DNA of 64,000 bases from Russula earlei (lineage: Eukaryota > Basidiomycota > Agaricomycetes > Russulales > Russulaceae). The translations under genes and the position numbers were made by a program. The notes under the pieces were generated by a model. It ran no database searches and was not told where the DNA came from. It worked only from the letters and a program-made list of their open reading frames with translations. The DNA lies in NCBI GenBank assembly GCA_025769875.1, contig JAGFNK010000004.1, positions 310,085 through 374,084 of the forward strand, in the 5' to 3' direction. Position 1 is the first letter of the stretch. Every line of letters begins with the position of its first letter. Below, in pieces: positions 5,991 to 54,740 of this stretch.

Positions 5991-6121
5991 GGGGGTGGGT
6001 GCACATGCCTGGGAGTGTGCCACTTGGGCATGCACATTGGCCATGATGGAGAGGGCATTGGGTTTGGTCTGCTTACCCAAGCATTCCCACCCAGCAGATG
6101 TTGGAGCTATAAGGAACATGA

Positions 6122-6258
6122 CTCAGTCTTGTGTACAAAAGACTGAGATTAGTTAGTAAGCTTACCTATAAGGAATGTGACTATGTATGGGATTAGTTTT
6201 GAAGAGAACTGTAAATGAGTGAAGTACTGACCTCAGTCTTGTGTATGAAAGACTGAGG
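6122..6258. repeat. Two near-identical 26-28 base hairpins
   Basis: CTCAGTCTT and AAGACTGAG are inverted around a short loop at 6122-6147 and again at 6231-6258, about 109 bases apart, in a CpG-poor stretch. The upstream phrase CTATAAGGAA also occurs twice. They could be the ends or subterminal repeats of a small transposon relic. Confidence 0.6.
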
Positions 6259-7126: not shown

Positions 7127-7156
7127 AGCTTTGATTATCATCATGATAATCAAGCT
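7127..7156. repeat. 30-base palindrome
   Basis: AGCTTTGATTATCAT and ATGATAATCAAGCT are reverse complements except for one extra T in the left arm. A third copy of TGATTATCA lies about 20 bases downstream (near 7176). It sits in AT-rich DNA about 340 bases upstream of the SPT2-like start codon. Function unknown; it could be a protein-binding site or a repeat relic. Confidence 0.6.
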
Positions 7157-7498
7157 AGGGAATTATGTACATTACATGATTATCATTGGCTATATTTCCA
7201 CTTCCAAATTTCTGACATAGATTCAGTACATGAGATTGTACTGTCCAACTTACAAGGCAATCCATTGAGAAATGGTTGAGATATAGCAGTTTGAATTTTG
7301 CACTTGAAACATCCAAAAAAGGAAGTAGAAAGTCACGTTCAAATGACAAATAATATTCCCAGCCGTCACGAGATCAACCTCTCAGCACGTGAGACATTGC
7401 CAGGCAGAGAGGCACAGCACAGTTCCCGGAACGATCCTTTGCGGTGCCATCTTCCTCACTCCTTCTTGTCTCTTTCCTTGCTCTTCGACTTTCAAATC

Positions 7499-27092: not shown

Positions 27093-27872
27093 GACGGTCG
27101 GTCGAGCTATTGCAAGTAGAATCTAGAGGATAGAAAACTAACACGTGTGCGAAGCACAGGGTGACGAGTTTGTTTCCCTGTACCCATGAGGCAGTCCGGG
27201 AGGTTGGACCGAAAAATTGGCATGGCTGGTGAGAACATATTGGAGCAGACCGCAATGGTTGCGTTACTGTGCACGAATGAACGGACAGTCGTTGGCACTG
27301 GGGATGCGAACAGGGCTCTCGCCCAAGGAACTGGGAAGGCCCAGCCTGAAGAGGCTCTACGTGACTGAAACGAGCACCGTGACTGTGACTGGGTGAGTTC
27401 TCTTTCTACCCTTATTCCTCTGGCTGGGATGTCAACATTATCCATTCCGAGAGCATATATCCTCCATGACCTTGTAATGGTCGTCCTCCTTCAGGTACTC
27501 TCTCCCTTGCGAGAGGAACCGCTCGAATATGACCATTGAGAACGGAAAGCTGAGCTTTCAACCTCATTTTTCCTGCCACAACACCGAACGGTACTGAAGC
27601 TTCCCTCCCAGTTTTCAGCAACTGGCCGTTTCGAAGACCAGATGAATGTGATCAACCAACTCAAATTCACTTTGGCACGAGATGTCCCTGGCAAAGTACG
27701 TACAATATGAAAAGAAAAATAAGGCTAAAGACGACACTCTCAAGACCACAAGACAACATATACCTTAGTTACATCATAGCCGATGCCACTTAGGAAGGTC
27801 CAATAGGCACCACATCCCTCCCCTCACCTTGGCCACCCTACGATCCCCAATATCATCCACTAAACAATGCGG
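27093..27872. other. Intergenic region, proline-rich gene / AT-hook gene
   Basis: About 780 bases containing the promoter of the proline-rich gene and the 3' flank of the AT-hook gene. Short open frames here (27107-27445, 27412-27621 on the minus strand) lack recognisable motifs. No repeat found. Confidence 0.45.
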
Positions 27873-29756: not shown

Positions 29757-30984
29757 GGATAAGCCTGTTCTAGAATAGAAAGCGACATGTCAGTGATGAG
29801 GAAGCAAGGATCGTTGGGTTGGTGGAATAAGACAGGGTCGAGGTGAAAAAAAAAAAAACAAAAAGGAAAAGGAGAAGAATGTTATATTTTTTTTGGTTGT
29901 GGTAACCCCCTTCGTTCGGTCCAAGAAATCAAAATCAGAATGCTCACCTCCTTAAAAATTTCAACACAAGAACACTGCCCAAATAAACTCTGCTGTCTAA
30001 TTAATACTGCATTAACAACTCCCTTGGAATGGGGAGGGACGGAAGCGAGACGAGTAAGTAAAAAGGGGGAGGGAAAGAGTTATTGGAGAGGGGACGGGGA
30101 TTATCGAATTGGAATCACAGGTTATCTGGAATTACCGCAGCGGAGTTGAAAATTCTCTCTCAGCTTATAAATCTTGTTTTTCAATTCGCTCTTCTCTCTC
30201 TCTTACTTAAGTGAGGTGAGTTCTCCCATCTTTTCATTCTCACCATTTTCTATCCCTACAACGATGATTCATACCGACAATTTAGGAAGTGCCGTCTGAA
30301 GGTCCTCCTACGAGCCCCGTGTCGAGCTCGGTTCTCTGAACCCTTTTTTCACCTTACATCTATCTGGTCCTGTAGAATTCTTTCTGACAGGTGTCTCCCG
30401 TAGTGATAAATTCACGCACATTTCGGGGCGTCATAGCATTCCACTTGCTTGATGCGGGAAATTACACATGACATTGTTAAAGACACGAGCACACATTCAC
30501 GCAGAAAATCTCTTGGTACAAATAATCAGTCACATTGTATTCTTCATGCAAACGTGATGTCTCCTATTTTGTGCCTATGCATCAAATCTCCTTCACCTGG
30601 ACTTGGATCCTCCCTCTCATTTATGAGCTGCGCGCAAAAAGTGCGGACATCTCAACGTCGTGCTGAAGAATTGGAATAGATGTCCGAATTTAATCCAGCT
30701 CGGCTTCAATCTGTCTTCGGAGCCAAAAAAATACTGGTACTACCATCTGGTGTCTCCGATCACCAGAAACAATATCATTGAGTACGACTCGAGAGACTGG
30801 ATTTAACTAAACATCTCATCACGAGGTGAGATTCGAAGAGCCAGTCAACGAGCGGTTGGGTAATACCAACCAACTTTGTCGTCAATGCACGGAAACCTGA
30901 CAGCTCAAGGTAGTAGTTTTGTTGGAGTATGACCTTTTTCTCCCCGAATCTGTATACCACAATGTGCACGGTTAGGTACAGAGG
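29757..30984. other. Gene-free DNA between the AT-hook gene and the transposon nest
   Basis: About 1.2 kb with normal CpG content up to about 30975. A-rich and T-rich tracts occur near 29846-29900. GCTTATAAATC at about 30160 could be a TATA box, with a CT-rich stretch after it (TTCTCTCTCTC, 30190). No coding exon recognised. The right boundary is sharp: CpG-poor relic sequence starts at 30985. Confidence 0.45.
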
Positions 30985-31571
30985 CAGAAACACTGGAGAG
31001 GTGGGGCCTCCAAACCAGATGAAGCCTTCATTGGCATCAGAAGCTTCTCCCTGTGCACACAGGTGACCTGATATGCCAGGAAACATGAGTTCCTGCTGCA
31101 CTGAATACATGCCCCTTCTTGAATGTCACAAACTGAGCATTTCTGGGATCTTAAACATTGAGGTGAGAGGCTTAAAATAGACCATTCAAGACCGACCAAT
31201 TTCCAGTGTTGTTTTGATATACACTCAACTCCAGTAATAGGCTCCATGAACACCTTGTTCACAACACATGTCTCTGGGATCCAGATTGCACAGAACAAAT
31301 AGACCCATTCACTGTGGACTGCTTGTTTAAATGCACTGCCCTCATTCAGGCATAAAAAACATGACTGGGCCAATGTCAGGAATGTTGAAATGACAAAGAA
31401 CCCCTGAAATGCCCCACAGGTTCTCCAGGGACACAGTACACTTTTGACATAACCACTGTCCTTCTGGGATATAAGGAACACCATAACAATCTAAAGGGAC
31501 CTTTGTTTACTTTGAATGGGCTAACTTTCCAATGTGTGATCAAACCTTGATGAACAGCAAGATTACACCCA
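30985..31571 (-). pseudogene. Relic genomic fragment of the NTO1 gene (PHD region)
   Basis: On the minus strand this matches 55487-56073 of the NTO1 gene over the whole 587 bases without a net length change. It includes the second half of the first PHD finger, the zinc knuckle and most of the extended PHD, and it keeps the introns (for example the GTTTCAGGGGTTCTTTG...GGCCCAG intron in altered form). It has no start, no first PHD half, no bromodomain and no PWWP. Most differences are C-to-T or G-to-A at CpG sites. The open frame of 170 codons seen here runs through former introns, so it is not a functional protein. Its right end abuts a terminal piece of repeat R at 31572. Confidence 0.93.
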
Positions 31572-31765
31572 GCTTCACCAAATCTTGCTCAAATCCCACA
31601 GAAAAGGTGGGGCTGCCTAGCCCTCATTGAGCAGATTTGGGAGATTCAAGTTTTATTGAAATTGGTGCAGAATTGAAGGAGATATTTGGCTTGCATGTTG
31701 AGGGGGAATTTGTACCAAATTTAGGGTTTTTCAAGCTCTGCCAAGTGCACTGAAAATGGCAATAA
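31572..31765 (+). repeat. Terminal fragment of repeat R (third arm)
   Basis: Matches the outer end of the right R arm (about 42565-42752) in direct orientation and the left arm (32010-32200) inverted: GGGGCTGCCTAGCCCTCATT, CAAGCTC.GCCAAGTG, GAAAATGGCAATAA. It is adjacent to the NTO1 fragment, suggesting that fragment sat inside another R copy. Confidence 0.75.
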
Positions 31766-32009
31766 CCAAGTGGTCTTAAAAACTATAAGTGTCTAATGAA
31801 AGACAAACTCATGGAGAATTAGCTGCAAAAGAGGAAGAACTCCAGGACACTCACACACTTCTTTAAAGGGAGTTACTCAGGCCCATGATACCAACCAAGA
31901 ATTCTTGAACTTGAACTTGAACTTGAATTTCAGGATTTTCCAAGAGTGACTGGTGTGACCAGTGTGATATAAGTGACATGGCATATATGATAAACTCATA
32001 GGTTTTTTT
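31766..32009. other. Spacer between two inverted R termini, with a TTGAAC microsatellite
   Basis: CpG-poor sequence with no coding potential. It contains four TTGAAC hexamers in tandem (about 31904-31928). It ends in a T-run against the left tip of R. Confidence 0.6.
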
Positions 32010-32436
32010 TTATTGCTGTTTTCAGCACACTTGGCAGAGCTTGAATTCCACCCAAATTAGCACAGAAAACCCCTCAAATGTGTGGGACAAATATCTCCCT
32101 CAAAACAGCTTCAATTCATATAAAACTTATTATTCTGAATCACCTGAATGAGGGCTAGACAGCCCCATTGTTTTCATGAGATTTGAGTGAGAATTGGTGG
32201 AGCTGGACTCAAGCCACCTCCACATGTGTATTAGATGAATTACAACTCAAAATCGTGGTCTAGATCTATAAAATTTCCCTCATGTTGTACCCATGGGCTG
32301 TCTTGAGGCAGCCCCATAGTGTTTTTGACTCAAGTGTTGTGGTGTGCAACATTGATTCCTCAAATCATGTGACAGTAGCACAGTCGTGTGCTGGGAAGGA
32401 GCCCCCCAGGAAGTGCACACCTGAGTCCATGGGGCA
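32010..32436. repeat. R left arm, outer part
   Basis: Inverted match of 42316-42752, including CTCATGTTGTACCCATGGGC and CACCTCCACATGTGTATTAG. It ends at GGGCA, the left target-site duplication of the copia element. Confidence 0.85.
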
Positions 32437-32653
32437 TGTTGAAGTGGAACCCGAATGGATTAAAGAAGGTGAAGACCTTCATACAAGGTTCAAGATCCGC
32501 TCATAGATGTTACATGTTAGACAGAACTTTAGCATATGTGCTTATGGCAATAGGGTTATGCATACTATGCTATCTATCACAAGATGCAGCCTTATGCTGC
32601 ATCTAGAACGTTTCCACATCATGCGTCACTGTGTGCATGATATAGTGGACACC

Positions 32654-34104
32654 TGTCATGAATTACCCCCTTGTTGGTTCATCTCTACACCCTCTTTTGT
32701 TATTGTTTACTTTTACTATTGTTCTCCTCCATCACCCTCATCCCCTTGGTTACCATTTCATCCCTTGATGCTGATGGTCCCTTATTGTTTCACCCATTGT
32801 GTTTCATCTATTGTTCAAGTACCTTTTTGCCATTGGTTCGCCTTTATCTATTGTTCCACATATAGTACTGTACAGCCTCGCTAGATACAGTATTTGAGTG
32901 CCTGTAGAAGCTGGGGGAATGCCCCAAGCTTAGCTTTGTCCCATTTCCTGTCGCTGTTATGAACCAAGGCCAGGTCCTGGCTGTAGATTGTCCTATTTCA
33001 CTCAAGAGAGACCTCTCTCACTTTACATTGCCAACTCCCTTCCATTTTCTGGGCTACCCCTCCTGTGGTACAAAATATCGCTATTGCAAAGGCACTATAA
33101 CATGACCAGGCACCAATTTCCTAATCGGGTAATCATTGCGTGGCAGCCACATGGTCACCCAGCCACCAAGAACCCGAAACAGCGGCACAAACTCTTAGAA
33201 ACTGTTGCATAACTCATCTGATGTCATCAAGGCTCCAATGACATCATGGCTGACTGAGCGACTCCACAGTGACCCTCATAGGCTCACTAAGCACTCCACA
33301 GTGACATCATAATGATGTCATCACTCCACAATGATCAGTAATGTGCTCAGTAAGCCTGAAACTTGACACAAGTGAAGTTTATGCCTCTGTAGTCCTATTG
33401 GATGGTACCAAAGGGTCTAGAATAGTTCCAGTTCTTTGTAATCGACCCTGTACACTGTATATAAGCCCCAATGAAGCATGGCAGTCGTCAGACTGTCCAT
33501 TTGTGATACTCTCATCTTCCTGGGTACTCCCCCATGACCACTCAGTCTAAAGATTCCCCTCGCCTCCAAGGTACTCTTCTACGACCGCCTTGTTTAAAGC
33601 CCCCTCACTACACTGGCCTCCAGCCCTTGCCTCTGTCTCTTGCAACACCTACCAGTCCCCATCTGGTACCTCCTCGTCATTTGGCTCATCCTCTTGTTCA
33701 ACACCGCCTTCGCCGCGTACCATCTGTTCTGACCCTTGCCCACCTGCTCCTGAGTCCTTAGTGATCAGCAGTATGTGTCTTGACAGTTGCATCCCTTGCC
33801 CTGTACTCTCTCTCAAATCACAACTTTGCTTGTGCTGGCCTACACTCTGCTTGACCTAAGCACACCTCAAGGAACCCTTGTGTTCCTCTTCCTCCTCTGT
33901 CTCTCTCTCACTGTCCTCCTCTTCTGAGAAACCAGAAGATTGACTCTGTCTGCGGACTGAGTCATTATCTGACTCAGCCTTGAGACGCTAAACCCCTGAC
34001 CTGGTCTCTTTGAGCCGGCCCCCACTGAACCCTTGAACCAAGTCACAGGGACTTGGCCCCACTGAACCTTGAGCTAATGCTCTTTCAGCCATGACACTGT
34101 AACA
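32654..34104 (+). mobile_element. Solo LTR A inside the copia 5' LTR
   Basis: Begins TGTCATGAAT and ends CTGTAACA (TG...CA) and is flanked by perfect 5-base copies of the target ACACC (32649-32653 and 34105-34109). Without the nested solo LTR B it is about 615 bases. No internal coding region, so it is a solo LTR of an otherwise unseen family. Confidence 0.85.
32955..33785 (+). mobile_element. Solo LTR B, same family as the 60404-61232 Gypsy LTR
   Basis: From TGTTATGAACCAAGG to GTGTCTTGACA it matches the reverse complement of 60404-61232 throughout (831 versus 829 bases). Flanks are GTCGC and GTTGC, a 5-base target-site duplication with one CpG-to-TpG change. It lies inside solo LTR A. Confidence 0.9.
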
Positions 34105-34445
34105 ACACCTGTAGTCACCTCTTTTGGACTTAGGAACAGCCCTGGGTCATAGAGGTATAAATACCATACATGTAGACAAGTATACACATCGCTCTACACC
34201 CCAATATCACTTGAGCATTAGCACAACCTCTAAGGTGGGTTGCTTGGCCTGTTAGCTGCGCTCTATGCTGCACAACAGGTTATGGACCCTGCAAGCCATG
34301 CACCTTCATTGGCTGCAATGATGGCAAAGCATCCCTGAAGCCTGCATGCTGCCGCAAGCTAGTCTACCCTATGGGGAGACTATGTCGGCTTGTTTGAATA
34401 CAATACTCTTACTGACAACCTCTAAGCCCTATTCTAACAGCTATT

Positions 34446-35368
34446 ATGTTGTCATCTCAACCCTCTGCCCCTGTTGTCCCCATCCTTGATGGCACTAACT
34501 ATGGTATTTGGTCAAAGGCTATGAAAGCCTACCTCATGTCCATTGGACTGTGGGGTTACTGCAATGGTACTTTTGATGTGCCTATCATCCCTCTCCTTCC
34601 CCAGATGCCTCTTCCTGAAGAGATTGCTGCCCAGGCTGTCGCTCAGGCAGCTCTGAAAGAATGGAACAAAGGGAATGATATGGCAGTCAGTCATATGGTC
34701 CTTAGATTGAGCATCGTGATCCAACAAGATCTTACGTCTTTGGATAATGCTGAAACAATCTGGAATTGCCTAGAAACTCTATATGGTATGGTGACCACCA
34801 CAAGTATCTATAAGGACTTCAAAGAAGCCATTTCCATCTGCATTAACCCGAGCCAGCATCCTGGCCCACAAATGGATCGGATACACGCTGCGTTCCGGTG
34901 TCTCACCGCATCCTCCCTTATCATTCCTGACACCTTACAGGCACTCATCATGCTTGCAGCCATTCCCCCAAAATGGGAAATGTTGGTCCACATTGCACTC
35001 AGAACTATGATCTAGCCAATCTTAGCCCAAAGGATGTGCAAGAGTCTATTGTCTCTCAATACCAAACTGAGATGAATCATGGGACCAATAAAAAACACAG
35101 TGCACAGAAGCTCTCAGCTGTCAAGTGCAGGCATGGTGACCCCTCCTTCTCTTCTCAGCAGCAGGGCAATAAGCCCAAGCGTGATGAAGATAAGGACAAG
35201 CACCAGCATGGTAAGCTCAGTGGCAAAGGAAAATGGAAAGGCAAGGAGAAGGCCGATCACAGCCATGGTCCCAGACACTCCCACATTGCAGATGTTGCTG
35301 CACTCCCACTCCCACTATCGCCCATCTGGGTCCTTTGGGGATCCAACAGCAAACCGTCCCAACTGTGA
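34446..35368 (+). pseudogene. Copia gag (frameshifted)
   Basis: The frame from 34446 (189 codons) has the copia UBN2/gag pattern: LDGTNYGIWSKAMKAYLMS near the start, then AAQAALKEWNKGNDMAVSHM and LDNAETIWNCLETLYG. A frameshift near 34980-35015 moves the remainder into the 34973-35368 frame, which is Lys/His-rich. Confidence 0.85.
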
Positions 35369-38300
35369 CTGACCCTCACAAATGCACTCATGGCCCTTAC
35401 AAGGCCTTAAACAAAGTGCTTGATCTTGCTGATGATCTTGGGGTAACCCCCACTATACAGACAGTCAAGACTCTTGAGCAGCGGATCTTGACTCAATCTG
35501 CTGCCTTGTCAAGTGCAGTTAAACTACCGTCGCCCATCCCTGAGCCTATGGACCAGGACAATGGTGACTTTGTGCAAACAAATACGTCAGATTTATTCAA
35601 CATATATGACAGTATCCCAGAAGGTGCTGCCACCCCTGAGCGTGCTCCGACCCCGTTGGATGAACTGCTTGATTGGGGCAGCGACCCCGAAGATAATGAA
35701 GCATGCATGCACCTCCCTCTCTCCTTTCACTTGCTAAGGAACCTTTTAGCATCTCCCCAGCCCCAAAGCGGGCTAGATATGTCTAAAAAGTGTTTGTTTG
35801 TATCATACAATGTACAAATTAGCAAAGGGACTACTTCCCTTCAAAGTGAATGTAACAAAAACTGTTCAAGATGCAGAGGAAAGCACGACTTGAGTAAAAT
35901 GGGATCCTTATGGCTCCTGGACTCTGGTGCATCTGCACACTTCACCTTCGAAATAAAAGACTTTATAGAGTATATGCTGGCTTTGCCGCATGAAAGATCC
36001 CCTGTGAAAACTGCTGATAACACAATCTATGTGGAAGGCAAAGGCACTGTGTTGCTTTGGCACACTGTCAACTCAAAAATGGTTGTCACATGCATTTCTC
36101 CTGTCCTTTATATTCTGAAAATAAACATTTGGATATTATCTATGGGGGAGTTTTTACAACAAGGGATGCATGCATTAGGGAAAAATAGACATATTTCCCT
36201 ATGAGAGGATGGACATATAATCCTGTCCTCTTACCCCTTATTCCCAGGTCAAACCACATATTGGTTAGACACCTCAATTGAAAGCGTGCAAGCACATTCT
36301 CTTATCTACACAGTAGATTATGATGTCATTCACTGACACCTTGGCCACCCATCTAAGGATGTCATAACACGTGCAAAGACACATACCAAGGGTCTCCCTG
36401 AAGACCTGAAAATCCCTCAGGAACAGCCGGTATGTCCTGGCTGCACACAAGGCAAGATGCCTGCATCTGTGCACCCCCCTTCTGAAACTTGTGCTTCCAC
36501 ACCGTTTGAGTGTATTCACTCGGACCTTAAGAGTTTCCCTGTGAAATCGTATCATAAGTACAAATATTTCATCAGTTTCATTGACAATTATTTTTCCTAT
36601 GCATGGATCACACTCTTAAAAAATAAAAAGTCGACCATAATGGCCATCAAGCAATTCCTTGCTATGGTCAAAAACCAATACAAAGCAGGAATCCAAGAGT
36701 GGATGTCTGATGCTGGTGGAGAGTACAAGTCCGAGGCCTTTGATAACGTCCTAAAGGACGAAGGAATTAAAATCCTGCAAAGTGCCCCTTACACTCCACA
36801 ACAGAATGGATGTGCAGAGCACTTTATGTGCACTGTAATGGACAAAGCTCAGGCTATGCGCCTCGAAGCTTGTCTACCTCCCTCCTGGTGGGAATTTGCA
36901 GTGAATCATGGGACACACTGTTACAATAGGACACCAGCCAGATGCCTTCAATGGTGTACACCCTATGAAGTCCTAAAGAACGAGGTCCCTGATATCTCAC
37001 ACCTCAGAGTATTTGGTTGCAGTGCATATGTGCACATACCAGAAAAGCGTTGAGTCAACAAGCTTTCACCTAAAAGTGAGCTAATGATCCACCTTGGTCA
37101 CACTGAGGGGATCAAAGCCTCACTCTTTATGAGGCTCCCAAATAATACACTTTACACTAATGCCACTGCCCTCTATGATGAGACCCTGTACCCCAAATGT
37201 GACAAAGTGCACACTAAAGGTACCATGCAGATTAATGAACCGTGTGAGGAACTACTGCAACAACCTGTTGAAGACACCATTCATGGTGTTGACAACCCAT
37301 TCCCTACAATAACAAGTGAGGATGATGAGAAGCCTATACAGGCGCCACAAGAAGAGGAACACAAGCAAACACCTGTCCCTCCTACACCATCCCCTCCTCC
37401 TGTTGGAGAGCCTGTACCTCTTCGAAGGTCTCAGTGGTTGAGGAAAGTACCTACCCATTCTGGCAACGTCTATGGTGAATGCAGACACCCCACAGAAGTG
37501 GAAAAAGATGTTCAGTGCACACGCACATGGAGAACAATGACAGAAAACCAACCTGGTAGCTCCAGTGAGGGTAGTACATCAGGATCGGCCACACCAGGCC
37601 CTTACCCTCCTGTCATCCTTGATGATCAACTGCCACAAGCCTCTGAGGATGAGGTAGAAGACATTCTATGTCTTGCAAGGGAAGGGGGAGTCAAATTTCT
37701 GAACTATCTGCTTGCCCAAGCAGTTCCACTAAGTTCGGAAGCACCTGATACTGCAAAGATTTGCAAATGGACCTTTAGGGACATTTTGCGAATGCCAAGT
37801 GAACTCCAAAAGGAGTGGAAAGATGCTTGTTGCAAGGAGTTGGAATCCCTCCACAGATGCAAAGTCTTCAAACTAGTCAATCCTCCCAAGGATTGCAAAA
37901 TAATCAAAAATAGATGGGCATTTGACCTTAAGTCTGATGGTTGTAAAAAAGCCAGACTAGTCACCAAAGGCTTCTCCCAAGTAGAAGGCATTGACTATGA
38001 CAAAATATTTACACCCATGGTATGGTTCAAGACAGTCTGCCTGATGATTGCGCTCGCAGCGCTCAAAAACTGGCACATTAGCAGACTAGACGTCAAGACT
38101 GCCTTTCTCTATGGTGAGCTTGATGAAGAGCTCTATATGGAGCAGCCTGAGGGCTTCAAAATAAAAGGCCAAGAGCGTAAAGTCATGTGCCTTAAACATG
38201 CAATATATGGACTTAAGCAAGCGGCACTTGCATGGTGGAAAGCCCTTGACAAGTCCATGGCCTCGCTCGGCCTTATTCGCCTCATGTCTGACTCTGGGCT

Positions 38301-39277
38301 CTTTGTTAGTAAAGACAAGAGCATCATAGCCATCGTCTATGTTGATGATTTGGAGCAGACAAAAAACAAATCTATAAAACCAAGGAGCGCTTCATGAAGC
38401 TCTGGGAATGTTGAGATCTGGGCGATGCCCAAGAATTTCTATGCATGCGCATTCAACGCAAGTCTGGCCAGATACATCTGGACCAGACTGAATATCTAAA
38501 AAAGGTGCTGCAGCATTTTGACTTGCTTAACGCAAACCCTGCTCCTACTCCGCTACCAGAGGGCTATCACCCCTCTCCCAACACTTCCACTGCTGACCCA
38601 GCCTTGTGGTCAAAATTCCAGCAAGTTATAGGATCACTCTATACATAATGCTTGGAACGCGCCCAGACATAGCCTTTGTGGTCACTAAGTTGTTGCAACA
38701 TGCTGCCAATCCCTCAGAGGATCATTTAAATTGTGCATTCTATATTTGCCGATACCTCCTGGGAACTGCCGATTATGCCTTGGTCTATGATGGACCATCT
38801 AATGGCAGTCTAATGGCATATGCAGACCCTGACTGGGCTTCTGATCCGACTAATCAGAAGTCCACTACAGGCTATATGGTGAACCTGGCTGGAGCAATAT
38901 TTTTGTGGAACTCATGAGCACAGAAAACAGTCACACTCTCTTCCACAGAAGCTGAGTACATGTCGCTCTCTGACATGAGCAGACAGTTAGTTTGGATTAA
39001 ATCCTTACTAACAGAACTTGGAATCAATCTTGCTCCCATCCCACTGTTTGGTGATAACCAAGGCTCAATATTCTTAGCCTCCAACCCTGTGCAAGAAAAG
39101 CACATCAAACACATTGATTTGCACTATCACTTCATTTGTGAAGTCATACAAAACAAACAGGTGGAGCTATTCTTTATTGAAGGGGCTAACAACCCAGCTG
39201 ATATGTTCACCAAGAACCTTGGTTGCATTCAGTTCCTCAAATTCAGGGAGCAGCTAGGACTAACATTCTACCCCTGA
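35369..39277 (+). pseudogene. Copia pol: protease, integrase, RT, RNase H (several stops)
   Basis: Order: protease with LLDSGASAHF (about 35916-35946); integrase with an HxGHPS zinc region broken by a stop, HSDLKSF, SDAGGEYKS and PQQNGCAEHF (36450-37050); a Pro/Ser-rich linker with NRWAFDLKSDG; reverse transcriptase with ISRLDVKTAFLYGELDEELY and the catalytic YVDD (about 38337); RNase H with ARPDIAF-like GTRPDIAFVV, SSTEAEYMSLSD and the C-terminal NPADMFTKNL. The order integrase before RT defines copia. Stops at about 36202, 36336, 37051, 38395 and 38915 and several shifts inactivate it. Confidence 0.92.
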
Positions 39278-39326
39278 ATGTGGGAAAATACTCATGGCAT
39301 CTACCAATGCACTTAGCAAGGGGGAG

Positions 39327-39711
39327 TGTTGAACTGGAACCCGAACGGATCAAGGAAGGTGAAGACCTTCATACAAGGTTCAAGATCCGCTCATAGATGT
39401 TATGTGTTAGACAGAACTTTAGCATATGCGCTTATGGCAATAGGGTTACGCATACTACACTATCTATCACAAGATGCAGCCTTATGCTGCGTCTAGAACT
39501 TTTCCACATCACGTGTCACTGTGTGCGTGATATAGTGGACACCTGTAGTCACCTCTTTTGGACTTAGGAACAGCCCTGGGTCATAGAGGTATAAATACTG
39601 TACATGTAGATGAGTATACACATTGCTCTACACCCCAATATCACTTGAGCATTAGCACAACCTCTAAGGTGGGTTGCTTGGCCTGTTAGCTGCGCTCTAT
39701 GCTGCGCAACA
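39327..39711 (+). repeat. Copia 3' LTR
   Basis: 385 bases, TGTTGAA to CAACA, colinear with the interrupted 5' LTR and preceded by the polypurine tract. Confidence 0.95.
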
Positions 39712-39716
39712 GGACA

Positions 39717-40112
39717 GTGAAGTGTGTCCAAGAATGAAAAATGAGTTCATAAGACTGAAGCACCAAAGAGGAGGAGCACCTAGCAGGAATGCAAGAATGT
39801 GTTTGTTCATTTGACTGCACTGAGGTTCACACAGATGATAAGGGAACAACAAGGCAACTTTATTCAAGATGGTAGCATATACAGGTGGGAACTAAGGCTA
39901 AGGGACAGGAAAAGCACAAAAGACAGGCATATGAAAGGAAATCTAGATGTAAGAAGGGGACCAAAGCTGGAAAACACAAGGTATTGAGTTGTGGTCTCCA
40001 GTGGCTGTGGTAGTGGCATGTGGCAATTTGTGAAGGATGGCCAAGGCCAGGTGTGGTGATGAGGGGTGTGGTCAAGTTGTGATGCAAAGGAGAGGTTGGA
40101 GGGGGTGATGAT
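39717..40112. repeat. R left arm, inner part
   Basis: Inverted match of about 41903-42315, nearly identical; both copies contain the same open peptide stretch around GLGHPSQIATCHYHSHW on opposite strands. It resumes directly after the copia 3' LTR and its GGACA target-site copy. Confidence 0.85.
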
Positions 40113-41902
40113 GTGGCCAGAGTAGCAATATGCTCTGGTTGTGTGCAGAATGGGCAAGAGTCAGCCCTCAGCACTTGGCAGCAGTGGGTGGAAGGCAATG
40201 GCATGGCACTCTGGGGGGGGACAGCAAGTGGAACTGGTGAATGGTGAATGGCAGATGGTGCAATTGCAGTTGCAGCAGCATTGACATTGACTTCATGTTA
40301 ATGGGCATGCTGGGGCAGAGGCATTGAGGCATCAGTGACAGATGTTTGCAGTGGTGTGAACTCAGAAAAGAGGTAGTCAATGAGTGCAGTGATTACAGTG
40401 ACACCTTCCAACCACAGTCTTGAGGTCTTCTTCATTTCAGGTGTTGTTGACAGATGTCATGAATGTGAAAGCATGAGGGCATGGGGAGTGGAAGTGAGAT
40501 GCAGCGCACTGGGTTACCCTTTGGTTTTTGCATCTTCAAGGCCCAGTTCACCAAACTTCAGGTATTGAGCTTGCCCAATTGCAGTGTCATGGTGCTCATC
40601 CTGCACCAAGATTGTGCTGTGGAACCACTGGTAAGTAAATCAGTCTTGAATTGTGACTGAAAGACAGAAAACTCACCCATAAAGTGAATGCGAGTGGAGC
40701 ATGCTGGATGATGGACTTGAAGATGTTGGGATATGGCATGTTCAACCTCAAGAGCAAGAGAATGGGCTAGGTGAAGGTGAGGTGGGTGTGAGAAGCAATG
40801 TACTGTCTAAGTGATGTGTGGCAGCAAGGAAGCAACTCAAAAAAAAAACAAGTGCATGCATATGTGCCACCAACTCGCTCAGTGTTTGCATTTGCATTTG
40901 TTTGCATCTCTTCCTCAAGCACTCTTTCCTCATCCTCCCTCTCCTCTTGAATCCTCTTTGACTTGCATTGTCCCTCTCTCCAACCAATCATTGACTTGCT
41001 GTGATCCTCTTCAAGACCTGGACACAATCTCCTATGACTGATCAAGACACATGCACTCACAATTGATCAACAACACCACCAAAGTACACAAGGGGTCATG
41101 ATCCTCAATGCATCATGTTCTTGTTCTTGCTTTTGTCTCTTGCTTTCAGTATCAGTACTATCATGCTATGAGATCATTGGTATGTGTTTCATGGTTCAAT
41201 TTCTTTTGTATGTTTTCTGATTTCATCATTCTTGACCTTGTGTTTTGGTGCCTCAACTCCCCTTGTCTTTCAAACTTTGTGTGCTCATCTCTTGCTCACT
41301 GTCCCTGTCCTCATCCAGCACTCAAGCACACACCATTTCTCACTTGCTACAGCACACACACACAGACCATAAGACATGCAAAATTGTTGCAAAGGCACAC
41401 AGCCTTGATGTTGACTCACTCACACAGCTATATGGCTGGCTGCAAATTGCTTACAAGAGTACATATGTGCATATTCCTTTTGTGCCATCTCCTCTTTGTC
41501 CTTGCATCATCATCATCATCACTGCCAGATGCCACCCTTGCCCCCATCAACCACCACATGCCCTTGCCCTCAATGCCCCTGCCTTCAGCATGCACCAATG
41601 AGTCCTGATGCACAGTCAAAGAGCCCTGTACCATACCACCATCTTTGTTGCCATTGGACAGTGTTGCTACTGTACATTTTGGTATGCTTTTTCTCCCTTT
41701 TTACCAGTCTCTCATTTTGTTAGTCAGAGATCTGCATGCTGCCTATGTGTCCATTTTCCAGCCTGCTGCCATCTTCCCTCTCCCTTTCTACTTCCATGCC
41801 CCCTTGCTCCTCTACCTTGCATCTGCCATCCAATCTCTCCAATCATCCCACCCACAATCACATTTGGCAGCGCCATCAGGGCCCAAGCAACCACCCACCA
41901 GC
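40113..41902. other. Middle of element R, no recognisable gene
   Basis: About 1.8 kb, CpG-poor, with Cys/His/Leu-rich frames such as 41108-41608 (+) that look compositional rather than coding. No DDE/DDD motif, Rep/helicase or zinc-finger pattern of a transposase was found. It includes an A9 tract near 40840 and CA-rich DNA near 41349-41362. Confidence 0.55.
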
Positions 41903-42752
41903 ACTCTCCCTATCCCCCCTCCAGCCTCTTCTTTGCATTGTCTCCCCCTCCTTGCATTGTGACTCAACCACACCCCCCATCACCACACCTGGCCTTGGCC
42001 ATCCTTCACAAATTGCCACATGCCACTACCACAGCCACTGGAGACCACAACTCAATACCTTGTGTTTTCCAGCTTTGGTCCCCTTCTTACATCTAGATTT
42101 CCTTTCATATGCCTGTCTTTTGTGCTTTTCCTGTCCCTTAGCCTTAGTTCCCACCTGTATATGCTACCATCTTGAATAAAGTTGCCCTGTTGTTCCCTTA
42201 TCATCTGTGTGAACCTGAGTGCAGTCAAATTAACAAATGCATTCTCACATTCCTGCTAGGTGCTCCTCCTCTTTGGTGCTTCAGTCTTATGAACTCATTT
42301 TGCATTCTTGGACACACTTCACTGCCCCATGGACTCAGGTGTGCACTTCCTGGGGGGGCTCCTTCCTGGCACATGACTGTCCTACTGTCACATGATTTGA
42401 GGAATTAATGTTGCACACCACAACACTTGAGTCAAAAACACTATGGGGCTGCCTCAAGACAGCCCATGGATACAACATGAGGGAAAAATAATAGATCTAG
42501 ACCATGATTTTGAGTTGTAATTCATCTAATACACATGTGGAGGTGGCTTGAGTCCAGCTCCACCAATTCTCACTCAAATCTCATGAAAACAATGGGGCTG
42601 CCTAGCCCTCATTCAGGTGATTCAGGGACAATATGTTTCATATGAATTGAAGGTGTTTTGAGGGAGATATTTATCCTGCATGTTTAAGGGGGTTTTCTGC
42701 ACTGATTTGGGTGGAATTCAAGCTCCACCAAGTGTGCTGAAAATGGCAATAA
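41903..42752. repeat. R right arm
   Basis: Uninterrupted arm that pairs with 32010-32436 and 39717-40112 in inverted orientation. It therefore records the sequence before the copia insertion. Confidence 0.85.
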
Positions 42753-47574: not shown

Positions 47575-47936
47575 TGTCACCTGCTGTCAGGTCAGACAAT
47601 GATTGATTAGATCCATTGAGCATTTGATGGTAGAGTTAACTGGTAGTCAAGCAGTTAATGAGAAGAAAGGAATCAATTGTCTGGTAACTAGACAGGAGAT
47701 TCGACTTGGGCTCTTAGTGAGTCCTTCGTACAGTTTATATACCTGCTGGAATACCGAGAGCCTAATGGTACATTCAAGAACTGGAGTCTGCAAGAATTGA
47801 GAGGAAGTTGAGAGAAGGGTTGACGTGCAGGAGGAAGAGACAAGTAGCTACCACACGTGACCAGAAGGTTCGAAAATTTACCATACCCGGTTCTTTCCTT
47901 TACACCCTGCTGGGCATGCAGTATCATCACCCTCCT
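47575..47936 (-). repeat. G2 3' LTR
   Basis: Reads TGATACTGC...GTGACA on the minus strand; pairs with 54185-54535, differing by a few transitions and an 11-base indel (AAGTAGCTACC region near 47845). Confidence 0.93.
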
Positions 47937-47956
47937 CCAAGACTGGACATCCTCAG

Positions 47957-48803
47957 CCAGGGCGACGCCATCCATTGGGTACTGGATTCAGGATGGAAAC
48001 CTTCGTATAAGGGATGTCGTTGTCAAAATGTTGGAGGTGGGCGAGATGAATGGAGAGTTGGGTGGCCTCAAGACAATATTGACATTTAATTTGGGCCTCT
48101 CGAGTGATGCGCATGTCAGTGTTATAAGCTTCACTCTTGGCCTGGAAGTCCATAAGTTGGACATCGAGTTGATGATAGCGGTATACATCCACGGGCAACT
48201 CCCCAGTCAAGCTCTTTCTGGGCCGCCTCATAGAGGTAGTCAAAGGTGACAGAGGACGCCCAGTAGTTGGCGGACTGAGCCATAGGGGAAGGGTTTTGAG
48301 GGTGACTGTCACGGTCATTGACTGAGGAGGCATAAACCTCCATGGCGGACTTGGTCTCGTTAGTGATTGTGCCGGGGATCCCAATGACCTTGGTGGTGGA
48401 AGCGTTGGAGCGGCATACAAAGTGTGCGAGGGTATACTTCCCGTTCCCAGTGGGAAGACAAAAGTTGGGTGCATGTCCAAGGTTAGTGACTGAAACCCTC
48501 AGGGGCCTCAATGAGGCATTGCTCCTTGGCCATGAGGAGGTCCTGAGTGGTGTCCAACTGTTTCTCCAGTGATTTGACTCATTCATCCATGAGTTCTGCT
48601 TCATGGGCTTGTTCCTCCAGTTCAAGAAGACGTGATCGTTGGTCAAGGTCGCGCTTCTTGAGGGTGGAGAGGAGTCCTGATGATGATAGTGCGCAAGGTC
48701 TCAGATGATATGTCTGGGTGACTCTCCAATAAATTGGAGACGGAGGTTGGTGAGAGTGGTCCATCGAAGATGGCAAGGGTAGTATCAATGGGTGAAGTGG
48801 ACA
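47957..48803 (-). pseudogene. G2 ORF3, uncharacterised ORF between pol and the 3' LTR
   Basis: Begins MSTSPIDTTLAIFDGPLSPT at 48801-48803, separate from pol. It continues across a few stops and shifts: a Glu-rich coiled coil (LLELEEQAHEAELMDE, SLEKQLDTTQDLLMAKEQ), a compact block (NLGHAPNFCLPTGNGKYTL, KVIGIPGTITNETKS), a helix block (ANYWASSVTFDYLYEAAQKE), and a C-terminal HQLDVQLMDFQAKSEAYNTD with NDIPYTKVSILNPVPNGW. It ends just before the polypurine tract. It does not resemble env, gag or a known chromodomain tail. Sense orientation and placement suggest it is part of the element. Confidence 0.7.
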
Positions 48804-48949
48804 TGATGGGATGGGAGATTGTATCAAGTTCTGGCGGATTTTTATAGGTAGACTGGGTCAGTCGTGATTGGTGGTACTTCATCAGGAAGGGATAAAGGTG
48901 GACATCCTTTCCTGGTAACCACATTGTGTTGAAGTGTGGGCAGTTCTTC

Positions 48950-51900
48950 CATTTAACCGGAATATTGAAGTCGCCATTGCTTTCCCCAACGTCAATGGTT
49001 CAAAATAGTTTCTATCTCTTCTCCTTCTTGCTCCATCACTATATGGGGATAAGGAGTTGGGGAGTTAGGTCCCCAGTGTGGAGGTTTCTATGTATGGTGT
49101 TAGCAGCGAGGTGCATGGAATACATCATGTATATTCCATGTTGGTGGTAATTTCAGTTTGAACGCCACTGGGGAGACTTCTTGTGAAATGGTGAATGGTC
49201 CATGTCTTTTTGGCACCAGTTTATTAGACAGATAGGGGAGTGACAGATTCTTGGCTTCTAGCCAAACCTTCTGTCCTTTCTTGAACATTGCCTTGGGAGT
49301 GGGTTGATTTTGTGCTGTTTGGTTAATAGCGGTTATGGCTTGAGTTCTTCTAGTTTCTAATAGTTTCATATGTTTTTCCACAAATTCAGTTGTTTGTGGG
49401 GACGGTTAAGGATGGTGAATTTATGGGGATATACCCAAGAAGTGCTTCTGATGGTGTCATATTGATGGTGGCATTGATCCGTGAGTTATGAACTGCTGTA
49501 GCCAATGGTGGCCATTGGCTCCAGTCAGTTTGGTCATGGGTGACTAGTTGGAGGTATTGTTCAATCCATTGATTGTTCCTTTCGGAAATTCCATCTGTTT
49601 GGGGGTGAAATGCCATTGACAGGTTCTGCTGGATTCCCAGTCTTGTATTAAGGGCTCTGCCAAAGTGTGATGTAAATCGTGGGTCCTGATCTGATATGAT
49701 TTTGGTAGGGAGTCCAAACCAGGGATATATGTGTTCAAGGTACAGCTGGGCGAGTTGGGGTCCTGTTATGGTCATTTGGCAGGGTAAGAATATGGCTGCC
49801 CTTGTCGCTCTGTGGTCTACTATGGTGAGGATAGCATCAAATCCTTTGCTTCTGGGTAATTGAGTTATTAAGTCCGTTGCTACTTGTTGGAATGGAAGGT
49901 TTTGTTGATGTGAAGGGATTCGGTACATGGGGGTTTTAGTTTGGTGTGTGAGTATCTTGTTTTGTTGACACGTGTCGCATCCCGTTATGTAGTCTCTGAT
50001 CCACGCATTCATTGATGGCCACCAGTATGATCAAATTACTTTGTGGAATGTTTCATCTCTTCCAGGATGGCCTGCTGTGGGATGGTCGTGAAATTCTTGT
50101 AGTATTCATCTTTTGAGGTATAATTCAGGGGGTACAACAAGTTTGTGTTGTCTTGCCTGTCAAGGGGGCTTGTAGTGGCCTTAATGTTCTGGACCATTCT
50201 CGACATAGGTTCTGATGGTGTTTTTGAGCTTGTTGGACATGTCCTTTGGTGGAACCGATGAGGATAGTGAGGATGAATAATTCTGATGGAAGGACTGTAA
50301 TGTCTTCATTGTCTTTGTCACCTTTATTGGCATCTGGTGGTCTGGATAGAAGATCTGCTGCTGAGTGTTTCTTCCCAGGGATGTGTTGTATTTTTAGCCA
50401 ATAGTCTTGTAAGTCAGTGAACCATCTGGCCACTCTTCTATTTATTTTTCTTGGGTTTTTCCAGTAAGTGAGGTTGGCATGATCTGTTAGCAGGGTTATT
50501 GGGTGACTGGTCCCTGCTAGGTGTGGTCTCCAATGTAATAACGCTTTGTGCACTGCATGTAATTCTCTTTCATATATGTCGTAATTTCATTCTGTGGGTG
50601 TGAAAGTGGAGGAGTAATAGGCAATTGGGTGTCATCATGGTTTGGTAGGTTTAGTGGGGTTGATTTCTCCCTCTTGTGAGAGTATGGCTCCTACGCCATA
50701 TGCTGAGGCATCTGTTTCTAAGAAAAATGGTTTATCATAGTCTGGTTGGGTCAATACTGGTTTCTCAGTAGTTAGACGTTTCAGTTCGTCAAATGCCTTT
50801 TGGTGACTTTGAGTCCAGTTCCAAACTGTTGCCTTTTTGGTTAGATCTAGTAATGGTCTTGCAATATTGGAGTATCCTGGTATGAAGTATCGATAGAACC
50901 CAGTAAATCCTAGAAAGGCTCTGATGTCTGTGGGTGTTTTGGGGTTTGGCCAGTTCTGTACACTGGCCACCTTTTTGGGATCCATTTGAATCATGTTCCC
51001 TTTTAACACAACTCCCAAGAATTCCACAGTGGTTTGTTCGAATTGGCATTTCTCTGGTTTAAGGTAGAGGTTCATGTTTCTTTAATTTATCCAGGATCTT
51101 GTGAATGTAGTTTTCATGGTTTGGATTGTCCTGTTTTGTTGCTATTAATATGTTGTCCATGTAAATGGTTAACCAATCTTCTTGTAACTCTTCTTCGAAT
51201 ATGGCGTTCATCATAGTTTGGAAGGTGGCTGGTGAGTTGGTTAGTCCAAAGAACATTACAGTGGGTTCAAATAGCCCTTCGTTTGTAAGGAAGGCTGCTT
51301 TCCATTGGTCTCCTTCTTTGATTCAAACGTTATTGTATCCCCATCGTATGTCAAACTTAGTGAACTTCCCTTTCCCATGGACTTTGTTTATAAGTTATGG
51401 GATTAAGGGTAGTGGGTATTGATTTCGTATGGTCCATTCATTCAGTTTTCAATAGTCCTGTACAGGTCATAGCTTCCCATGTTTCTTTTTAATGAAGAAG
51501 AATGAAGTGGCATAGGGGGATTTGGATGGTCATATGTATCCTTTCTGTAGGTGTTCCTTGACGAATTTCTTTAGTTCTTCCTGTTCGTCTTGTGTTAATG
51601 GGTATATTTTTCCAGGTAGGGAACTGGGTGGTCCAGGTTTTAATTGAATAGTGTGATCCCATATTCTTGGTTCTGGGAATTGTTGTGCCTGCTTCCTTGG
51701 AAAACACCTGGTTATGTTGTTGGTACTTTTCAGGTATGTCCGCGTGGTTGGTGGTATTAGGTGGAAGGATGATTCGTCCGATATATAGTTCCGAGGTTTC
51801 TTTTCTTTTGGGCAAAAATCAAGCCTTTGTAGTATCAGGTGTTTTGGCAATGATTGGTAGATGGGATGCATCCGATCCATCCTCTTGCCCAATCAATCCT

Positions 51901-52330
51901 TGGTTGGTTTGCCTGCGAACCATGGATATCCTAAGATCATTTTGTTTTCTCCCAAATCTGATAGGAAGAACCTCATTCTGATGGTTTTAGGTCCCATCCT
52001 GATGTCTAGGTCTGTGTAGTGTTGTAGTGCTCCCTGTTTTGTTGGGAGTTCCATTGATGTTTAATAACTTCCTGGGTTGATCCAGCTTCTTTATTGGAAG
52101 GCAGAGCCATTGGGCGTATTTCAAGTTTAGGAAGTTTTCTGTAGCTCCGGAATCCAGTAGTGCGAATCGTCTCAGCCCTCTTTTGATAAGAATGGAGATA
52201 TACTCTGACTATCATTGACTTTCTGTTAGACATATATACATTCTTATCAAAGTTCCTAATCCAGGCTGAACGGATTAGGGAGAGGGAAAATCTGATGAGA
52301 CCCCAAGTTGAGCGGCCAGCGCATCTTTAT
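48950..52330 (-). pseudogene. G2 pol: protease, RT, RNase H, integrase, chromodomain
   Basis: Minus strand. RT motifs FFGLTNSPATFQTMMN and WLTIYMDNIL (the YxDD motif reads YMDN here) lie at about 51256-51130; LGFTGFYRYFIPGYS and FFLETDASAYGVGAILS of RNase H follow. The integrase (50012-49386) has the catalytic ATDLITQLP, IISDQDPRF and HPQTDGISERNN patterns, with a zinc region CDTCQQNK. A GPY-like region and a damaged chromodomain (PVAFKLKLPPTWNIHDVFH, then CPHFNTMWLPG) end it. Stops and shifts break it in at least four places; the second Asp of YxDD appears replaced by Asn. Confidence 0.88.
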
Positions 52331-52439
52331 CTTGGTCTGATAGTGCCTCCAATGTGGCCCTTGCAGCTGCAATTTGGTCTTCAGGGGAAGAAGACAAGCG
52401 AGTGTGAGTGGGGTGGGGTGTTTCTACTATAGTAGGTGT

Positions 52440-54162
52440 GTCGTCCCAGTCAATGAGGTTAATGTTCTGCTTGTGTCATGGGCAGTCGTGCATGAAGTAG
52501 GCCTATTTGACCACACTCGAAACAATTGTTGTTGTTTTGGCGACAGTTGTTATTGTTGCCAAGTTGTGCGACTTGTCCTCTGAAGTTTCTCTGGTTTCGG
52601 AATGGGGGTGCTCGTGTCCTATCAATGTCCATGGGTACCTGTTGGTTAGCCATAGATCTGGGGGCGTTTGACGAGTTGTATCCTTGTTGGAATGATTGGA
52701 AGGCTCCACATCCTCCTGGATTGAAGGTGTTTCGTTGTTGATATTGTTGATTCCCGTGATAAGGGAATCCTCCTCTCAGGGATGAAGGGTGCGCACCTGA
52801 AGGTGTTGTTCTGTCCTAACAAATTGGCTAGCAACTGTTTTCCTTTGACTATTTTGACTGCACGTTGTTTGATGTCGTCGTAGGAGTTCATGTTTTGTGA
52901 AGTTAATATGGTGTCGAGGACGTTCTGTGGTAGTCCCCTCATAAAGAGATGGGTCACAGAATCTTCTCTGAGTTGGTAGCCGGCTTCACTGAGCGAGCGT
53001 TTCAAACGCTGCTATATATTGATCGACTTCGTTGTTTCTAAGTCGTAAGTCTGAGATCTTCCCTGCTGCACGTTGTGCTTTTCTGGTGTCTTGGAATTGT
53101 TGTTGAAATTCATGCTCCCATACTGCTGGTATGTCAGTCTTGTGGACTGAGGGTATCAATCCAAGTCCCAATGCTCCTGGCCCAATTGTTGATCTCTGGT
53201 CCTTTTATGAGAGTTAGGGCCAGCACGACTTGTCGAATGGGGGAGTTCATGCCAGTGACAGTTTGGTTGGCACGGAGGTAATCAGTCAATTCTCGAATAA
53301 ACAGGTCTGCCTTGGTTCGGTCACCTTCAAATGGAATAGGAAGACTTCCGAGGGTTTTGGTATCGCCTGGCGCCGGTTGTGGTATCGGGATCTGAGGTAA
53401 GTTAGTGTTTGGACCATATCCTCCAGGGCCTCCTGGGCCACCTGGACCACTTGGTCCTCCTGGTCCTCCAGATCCTGAAGGATGGCCTCCGCTTCATTGC
53501 AGAGCATTTCTAAGAGCTTGATATGTATCGTTTGGCATGGTGGCATTTGTTCTCCCGGCTGTGGTCAATGTTGCGGCAATGGTCGGCATCACGGTCGTGA
53601 CAGTTGTTGTTGGTTGAGTGGTTGTGGTAGTGGCTGTGACTGTGGCCATGGTGTTTGCTCTCTGATGGGGAAGCGCTGATAAGGGAAGGTTGCTGGGGAA
53701 GAATACAGTGGGGGTGAGGGTGTCATTGTTGTTCAATTTGACAGTGTCTGGTCTGAGGTCGTTGGGGATGGGCACGTTTTGTATGTTTCGTGCGGTATTG
53801 GTTTCCTCTTCAATAGTTTCTGTGCTAGCTGGTTCTGAATGCTTATCATCTGTATTTTCTCCAGCTTTCGTTTCATCAAGATTGTCTCATGTGTCGAGGT
53901 TGTAGCGATTCAAATTCTCTCATTCTTCTCCAAGGTAGCGCCTGCCGCTTTCGTCTTGGAATATTTCATACCAAGTGTCTGCTCCGTAGTAGACTGGTAC
54001 TGTGAGATCGTTGAATACTCGTCCTCCTGATGGATGAGTGATGTAGCAGCCCAGTGTTTGTTTGTTCTCTTCGGGTCCAACCCAATACGTTCACGTGTTG
54101 AATGGTACAGTGAGCCTATTCTGCTCTGGCAGGTAAACTCGTTCCCTGCATGACGAAGCCAT
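52440..54162 (-). pseudogene. G2 gag
   Basis: Starts at ATG 54160-54162. The N-terminal part is Thr-rich (TATTTTTQPTTTV), followed by a Gly/Pro linker. The retrotransposon gag domain is around FEGDRTKADLFIRELTDYL, LTLIKGPEINNW and WEHEFQQQFQDTRKAQRA, and a damaged zinc knuckle FECGQIG follows near 52510. Premature stops occur (e.g. near 54105 and 53494), and the frame shifts near 53000. Confidence 0.85.
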
Positions 54163-54184
54163 GATGAAAAGAAGTCAAATCTAA

Positions 54185-54535
54185 TGTCACCACTGTCAGG
54201 TCAGATGATGATTGATTAGATCCATTGAGCGTTTGATGGTAGAGTTAACTGGTAGTCAAGCAGTCAAAGAGAAGAAGGAAATCGATTGTCTGGTAACTAG
54301 ACAGGAGATTTGACTTGGGCTCTTAGTGAGTCCTTCGTACAGTTTATATACCTGCTGGAATACCGAGAGCCTAATGGTACATTCGAGAACTGGAGTCTGC
54401 GAGAATTGAGAGGAAGTCGAGAGAAGGGTCGACGCGCGGGAGGAAGAGACCACGCATGACCGGAAGGTTCGAAAATTTACCATACCCGGTTCTTTCCTTT
54501 ACGCCCTGCTGGACTCGCGGTATCACTCCCCTCAT
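54185..54535 (-). repeat. G2 5' LTR
   Basis: Reads TGATACCGC...GTGACA on the minus strand, followed by the primer-binding-like TTAGATTTGACTTC (54171-54184). Confidence 0.93.
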
Positions 54536-54740
54536 CATTGCTCACAAGTGCCTTCATGCCACCCACCCCAAGTGTGGCAGCTATGGCCTTCTCAGCATCA
54601 CATGTCATGGTTGAGCCCTTAGATTGGTATATCATTCATGTATTTAACTCTTGAATACACCATTATGAAACTTTAGAATTGTGTGTAATTATTATCTGCA
54701 TTCGAAAACAATTGTGGAGATTGGCATTTCTAGGGCGTGA
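54536..54740 (+). repeat. Dispersed repeat D, copy 2
   Basis: Colinear with the minus strand of 5740-5990. It starts at the G2 insertion point and runs to about 54740, less than 100 bases before the NTO1 start codon, so it may overlap the NTO1 promoter. Confidence 0.75.

Follow-up and report, generated by a model that had tools for sequence, protein, structure and literature searches.

The locus and the parent gene

The window, the whole stretch of 64,000 nucleotides of Russula earlei DNA that was analysed, contains part of a chromatin gene, NTO1, and, in transposon surroundings, a second version of one piece of that gene (Table 1). The domain order encoded by the gene is PHD, EPHD, bromodomain and PWWP. 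The EPHD (zf-HC5HC2H) and bromodomain pieces pass the Pfam cut-offs, and the PHD and PWWP pieces are slightly below them. The spliced PHD-EPHD part matches BRPF1 (peregrin) and solved NTO1 chains, and the gene also matches fungal proteins called NTO1 by their sources. This domain order, together with the BRPF1, NTO1 chain and fungal NTO1 matches, makes the name sound. The frame is open and spliced across the copied part.

In an alignment of the window with itself, the fragment matches the parental segment on the opposite strand with 91.3% identity (E reported as 0.0) over 588 columns, the fragment being 587 and the parental segment 588 bases long. The fragment is inverted relative to the gene and lies about 24 kb from it on the same contig, at the distance given in the original prediction. 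That prediction had placed the parent at 55487-56073 and had seen no net length change over 587 bases. The locus is correct, and the boundaries are now those of Table 1; the inversion had been left unstated, and the lengths agree except for a single 1-nt deletion in the fragment. Base 30984 (C) is also identical to the parent and leaves one base of uncertainty at the left junction.

The copied stretch comprises the end of the exon at 55378-55510, the whole exons at 55566-55642 and 55693-55860 and part of the exon at 55915-56088, with the complete introns at 55511-55565, 55643-55692 and 55861-55914 between them. The fragment contains all three introns and was therefore copied from DNA and not from mRNA, as had been proposed. 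When the assembly (66.6 Mb in 1374 contigs) was searched with the fragment, two candidates came up and were both scored, and they are the two loci described here. With just two copies in the assembly, the fragment shows no sign of having been mobilised.

Table 1. Positions of the fragment, its parent and the neighbouring features in the window
Feature	Position	Strand	Remarks
Left flank	29900..30984		Single match in assembly search, itself; CpG o/e 0.84
CpG-stripped NTO1 fragment, putatively captured	30985..31571	- (NTO1 sense on - strand)	Defined by alignment
Right-junction microhomology	31569..31571		CCA common to parent (..CACCCA) and R' arm (..GTCCA/GCTTCACC)
Right terminal arm of R' (Tc1/mariner-like)	31572..31765	+	0 CpG; matches family terminus
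Tract right of R' terminus	31766..31876		111 bp, 0 CpG, without TpG/CpA excess
R element with nested insertions including a copia element	32010..42752		Inverted ends 32010-32446 / 42315-42752, 92% alike
Gypsy-type element	47575..54536	-	LTR copies 54185-54536 (next to NTO1) / 47575-47937 (inside island)
Parental NTO1 segment	55485..56072	+	Keeps 28 CpG

Substitutions in the fragment

The fragment and its parent differ by 50 mismatches and the 1-nt gap. When these differences are counted by dinucleotide context, as the original prediction proposed for its own verification, the mismatches comprise 28 transitions at parental CpG, one transversion at CpG and 21 changes outside CpG. None of the 28 parental CpG sites (23 exonic, 5 intronic) is kept in the fragment, where 17 of them read TG, nine CA, one TA and one CC. 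Loss via transition accounts for 27 of the 28, compared with eight C>T or G>A changes outside CpG. The substitutions outside CpG amount to 21 of 532 sites with both branches counted together, and are distributed as 10/383 in exons and 11/149 in introns. The estimate made earlier by eye, of about 28 CpG sites in the gene segment that had nearly all become TpG or CpA on the copy alone, is borne out by the alignment: all 28 are lost from the fragment and retained by the parent, which has a CpG o/e of 0.81. The description of the fragment as free of CpG holds for the parental sites, but at 31193 the fragment has a single CpG opposite a TG in the gene. The last CpG of the left flank is at 30969 and the first parental CpG maps to 31016, so that the step in CpG content falls inside a 47-base interval, which includes the left junction.

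The direction of the changes was read from 13 orthologs out of 120 homologs listed (229 found). Among the 20 amino-acid differences, 18 are read as derived in the fragment, one as derived in the gene and one is unclear. Eleven of the 18 are supported by all 13 orthologs, and three rest on thin pluralities (4:0, 2:1 and 1:0). Two histidines that are present in 13/13 orthologs are altered in the fragment; both are presumably zinc ligands of the EPHD. A preserved function of the fragment was considered and rejected, as 20 of 30 codon changes are non-synonymous, the frame-shifting deletion affects one more codon, and the two conserved histidines are lost. The fragment is a dead piece of pseudogene and not a functional part. 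In a simulation with one CpG hit per site, exons without a stop came out at 0.25, so that the absence of a stop from the exons of the fragment is no surprise.

The R' arm and the junctions

On its right side the fragment meets the arm of a repeat at 31572, as originally predicted, with the three bases CCA shared between the two. The outer end of this R' arm, GGCAATAA at 31765, is intact and matches the end of the family; its reverse complement, TTATTGCC.., is the terminus shared by both ends of the R element in the window (32010 and 42752) and by nearly all other aligned R copies. Because the outer end is at 31765, the interior of R' points left, into the fragment. In this arrangement, the fragment takes the place of the R' interior rather than just adjoining a repeat. 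The earlier suggestion of transposon-mediated capture is thus supported as far as the involvement of a transposon at the right end is concerned, and it can be made sharper, as the fragment occupies the interior side of the true terminus.

A search with the R' arm gave 1032 candidates, 40 of which were scored; 39 of these places lie elsewhere, and 29 of them were fetched. In 27 of the 29, some of which are near-identical pairs with the same flanks, the arm runs on inward with family sequence at the point where the arm in the window switches to NTO1. The two exceptions are L040, which is interrupted by a nested repeat, and L042, which is shortened. L040 was considered as a second captured fragment and dismissed, since the insertion is a nested high-copy repeat. 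In L042, the arm stops at arm position 12 and is joined to sequence with 13 CpG per 300 bases, which is possibly another repair junction.

No R-type left terminus was found in 27000-31571 with a 15-base pattern and up to four mismatches. The element is therefore one-ended, with R' sequence on just one side of the fragment. Of the two features of a Pack-type element, a parental locus copied at the DNA level is present (three introns and 91.3% identity to 55485-56072), and the enclosure of host sequence between both terminal inverted repeats is reduced to the right end. To the right of the R' terminus, the tract at 31766-31876 gave no second copy among the 40 matches scored, which were taken up by a neighbouring repeat, so that a copy may have escaped. 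The following bases, 31877-32009, are the end of another many-copy repeat, which stops exactly at the start of R; the same adjacency of this repeat and R recurs at C22 (L004).

The R family and the neighbouring transposons

Three R elements that were followed end to end (L068, L069 and L070) are about 3.25 kb long, and others measure 3.0-5 kb or carry insertions. L068 has inverted ends of about 350 bp that are 94% alike. Comparison of a gypsy copy that contains an R insertion with five empty copies shows that GTCAATTAATTCAGG becomes GTCAATTA[..]TAATTCAGG, which is a duplication of TA in TTAA. A winged-helix piece of R, which is present in four R and two R' loci, matches HTH_33 (E 4.9e-6, above the cut-off) and HTH_Tnp_Tc3_2 (below the cut-off). 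By their coordinates, two DDE_3 matches among the 150 listed fall about 2.8 kb inside R ends. No whole Tc-type transposase was seen in the R and R' copies examined. The TA duplication, the HTH match and the positions of the DDE_3 matches would suit the assignment of R and R' to the Tc1/mariner superfamily.

Several other repeats are present in the window. A copia-type element (32431-39713) lies inside R, and about 1.45 kb of other sequence (32657-34104) interrupts its left LTR. The pair 47575-47937 / 54185-54536 was considered as a further capture and set aside, as it is a many-copy repeat and is read as a gypsy LTR pair. An inverted repeat pair of about 830 bases (32955-33785 / 60404-61232) is 91.6% identical and has 16 and 32 CpG, respectively, with fewer in the copy that lies in the island. 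A separate CpG-free transposon patch at 5300-7300 (0 CpG in 5879-7117) has CpG-normal surroundings and many relatives in the genome with 71-85% identity.

CpG loss across the R copies

Loss of CpG is usual among the R copies. At 47 sites with CG as the majority state, the 26 R end-copies outside the window have lost 2-65% of their CpG, and their non-CpG divergence averages 0.65%. The resulting ratio of CpG to non-CpG rates per site is 32, or 22 or 36 with a stricter or looser choice of sites; its bootstrap range of 25-43 is too narrow, because the R copies share ancestry and some are the two ends of one element. The R copy in the window keeps 1/46 CpG and has 28/875 other changes, and the fragment, with 0/28 kept and 21/532 over two branches, looks like this copy.

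The loss of CpG and the non-CpG divergence are poorly correlated among the R copies (r = 0.18), which counts against a pure CpG clock. L069 has lost 16/47 CpG with 0/875 other changes, and L019 has lost 27/47 with 1/876. When a constant clock was applied to five low-divergence copies with assumed ratios of 22, 32, 43 and 60, L069 and L019 fitted none of the ratios at p 0.05, and the other three copies mostly fitted them. On these counts, the loss in L069 and L019 looks burst-like and would be uncoupled from the ordinary clock.

Sorted by context, the CpG loss in 27 R copies is 0.227 at ACG, 0.203 at TCG, 0.167 at GCG and 0.167 at CCG. This set, from which R stretches shorter than 900 bases and exact duplicates were dropped, includes the copy in the window and several loci that contribute two or three ends. 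A TCG-type context preference was rejected, being just a weak effect in this set. No strand-coordinated runs of CpG loss were found in the fragment (P 0.89) or across 26 of the 27 R end-copies, the window copy included (z -0.52); one copy was dropped because it has too few lost sites. A strand-biased deaminase was rejected on the basis of the same test.

The two gypsy LTRs, taken as one insertion from their spacing and strand and assumed to be of equal age, differ in their retention of CpG: of 20 sites that are CpG in either copy, 18 are kept in 54185-54536 and 7 in 47575-47937 (p 8e-4). Two copia LTRs, both inside the island, keep 6 and 10 CpG of 13 sites. As these LTRs are unequal without an edge between them, unequal loss alone is no proof of an edge effect. 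An excess of TpG/CpA is common to the fragment, the R' arm and the repeat at 31877-32009, and the tract at 31766-31876 is free of CpG without such an excess.

The assembly encodes a DNMT5-like (Rad8, L077) and a DNMT1-like (L078) methyltransferase segment. With regard to a RID-type methyltransferase, as RIP would need, there are four PF00145 matches in the assembly: one is DNMT1-like, one is DNMT5-like, one is on C34 and one is a second match on C27. According to a review, DNMT1 and DNMT5 together form the core set for CpG maintenance in Basidiomycota (PMC13297926).

Origin of the fragment and of its CpG loss

The copy itself, the way it is oriented, its introns and junctions, its presence as a single copy and the pattern of its substitutions are observed; from them we infer a break, an order of events and methylation. 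The resulting reading, in which a break in a resident R' copy was repaired from NTO1 and the copy then underwent regional CpG methylation and deamination, is somewhat more probable than all others together. An old R' copy, Tc1/mariner-like and with its TA target duplication, would have been resident at the site first. A break in this R' copy would then have been repaired by copying 587 bases of NTO1 from about 24 kb away in inverted orientation, and the copy would have been joined to the R' arm via the 3-base microhomology. The left part of R' may have been lost at the repair or later. The captured DNA would thereby have come under transposon chromatin, at the border of an island of transposons that is poor in CpG and about 23 kb long. 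The CpGs of the fragment were probably methylated along with the island and decayed to TpG/CpA, and the parent gene would have kept its CpG in CpG-normal surroundings.

The marks of gap filling, namely a single copy, a source in cis and microhomology at a breakpoint, are all found here, the microhomology at the right breakpoint only. Simple arithmetic shows that a random place in 66.6 Mb would be this close to the source about 0.07% of the time. Several observations count against the reading: no left R' end was found in 27000-31571, CpG loss in the R copies is poorly tied to non-CpG divergence, the copia LTRs are unequal although both are inside the island, the step in CpG content across the 47-base interval around the left junction is sharper than simple spreading would suggest, and the 111-bp tract at 31766-31876 has neither CpG nor an excess of TpG/CpA.

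The original prediction had named methyl-CpG deamination and a RIP-like process as possible causes of the CpG loss. Deamination fits better, as judged from the parent (o/e 0.81) and the LTRs (7/20 and 18/20), and a RIP-like process fits less well. Regional methylation followed by deamination would be favoured over homology-driven RIP, because the parent keeps its CpG, the gypsy LTRs are unequal, there are no strand runs and there is little context preference. The DNMT1-like and DNMT5-like segments in the assembly point in the same direction.

It is unlikely that the fragment was recognised as a duplicate of NTO1 and hypermutated at CpG by a homology-triggered, RIP-like process up to the edge of the homology, with selection keeping only the lineages in which the gene remained intact. 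Such a process would agree with the onset of CpG loss within the 47 bases holding the left junction and with the loose relation between CpG loss and non-CpG divergence in the R copies (16/47 with 0/875; 27/47 with 1/876); the loss in the adjoining R' arm would fit too, as the arm is itself a repeat. However, the parent keeps its CpG, those of the introns (5/28) included, the two LTRs read as one gypsy element have lost CpG unequally, and the losses do not form strand-coordinated runs in the fragment or in the R end-copies. RIP mutates every member of a duplicated pair and prefers CpA, whereas here one member still has 28 CpG and the other has lost CpG, 27/28 via transition. The excess of TpG/CpA shared with the neighbouring transposons is as expected from methyl-CpG deamination in a transposon island.

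An active mutator that acts on CpG element by element in a RIP-like manner, but is directed by transposon chromatin and not by homology, is likewise improbable as the cause of the loss. It is suggested by R copies in which between a third and more than half of the CpG has gone with one or no other change, and by a unique piece of a gene that was fully hit once it was attached to a transposon, the boundary of the loss being narrowed to 47 bases.

The relative age of the R' arm bears modestly on the route by which the copy arrived. Outside CpG, the arm differs from the family consensus at 15/180 sites and the fragment from its parent at 21/532 over two branches (Fisher p 0.029); the consensus, which is based on 29 arms including that of the window (30 less one exact duplicate), mixes subfamilies and may inflate the apparent age of the arm. 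With transversions alone, the values are 5/180 and 8/587 (p 0.20). The comparison indicates that the R' arm is probably older than the capture.

A capture that depended on transposition, in which R' became a Pack-type element by taking up the NTO1 piece at another place, jumped to the present site and later lost its left end, is distinctly unlikely. The right terminus is indeed intact, including a TAA that fits the TA target duplication, and transduplication by DNA transposons, one family of which is Tc1/mariner, has been reported in a fungus (PMC3538342). Nevertheless, the fragment is single-copy in the assembly, a left end was not found in 27000-31571, the source is just 24 kb away, and the R' arm seems to predate the capture. 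There is similarly little probability that NTO1 was duplicated in inverted orientation independently of any transposon, and that R' landed at the edge of the duplicate later and then lost its interior. Such a history agrees with the left junction, at which no transposon sequence was found, but it requires that the interior of R' was lost exactly at the edge of the fragment, at the shared CCA, and the arm again appears older than the copy. The idea that the fragment holds the old state and that the gene gained CpG, to which the single position read as gene-derived and the CG at 31193 (TG in the gene) would conform, is hardly credible and is ruled out by the comparison with orthologs, as 18/20 amino-acid differences are read as fragment-derived and the gene encodes PHD/EPHD, bromodomain and PWWP pieces in a frame that is open and spliced here.

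Comparison with known systems

The decay of CpG in basidiomycete transposons (PMC4352252), the capture of genes by fungal DNA transposons (PMC3538342) and capture by gap filling (PMC8277862) are already in print. A literature search of partial coverage gave no fungal case of gap-filling capture with a mutated copy beside a CpG-bearing parent. The same 588 bases are present twice on one contig, once in gene and once in transposon surroundings, and constitute a natural test of the effect of transposon surroundings on mutation. With such a pair, the part of position in CpG loss can be better told apart from that of sequence, for which repeat families alone do not suffice. The analysis also provides a working CpG:non-CpG rate ratio of about 32 for one repeat family of the Russula earlei genome.

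A CpG-type C-to-T bias has been described in the transposons of basidiomycetes with a Masc2-type DNMT1, and its authors suggest methylation followed by deamination (PMC4352252). The fragment shares with that bias the CpG signature and the presence of a DNMT1-like gene in the genome. The published data, as far as that account goes, are genome-wide transposon counts for two rust fungi and an anther smut, whereas the present case is one unique gene segment with a CpG-bearing parent in cis. Ascomycete RIP, as outlined in the same paper, resembles the present case in that C-to-T changes occur on duplicated sequence; it differs in that here CpG and not CpA is affected, the partner is not stripped, and there are no strand runs.

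In Pyrenophora tritici-repentis, transduplication by hAT and Tc1/mariner elements is described (PMC3538342), and both there and here fungal DNA transposons are associated with host-type coding sequence. The P. tritici-repentis elements are reported as multi-copy with ORFs between both ends, unlike the single decayed piece with one end found in R. earlei.

Among the animal Pack-TIRs as reported, 160/281 lie within 15 kb of their parent and 190/281 have microhomology (PMC8277862). The gap-filled single-copy elements of that study are like the present one in being TIR elements with a single copy, a source in cis and microhomology, and in having apparently been captured after insertion. The present case differs from that study in retaining only one terminus, in its distance of about 24 kb, in its fungal host, and in that the state of R' before the capture is a reconstruction. 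Gene capture and CpG loss are each already known in kind, and together they form here a one-ended example of a known phenomenon. The likeness to the animal TIR elements suggests that gap-filling capture occurs in fungi too.
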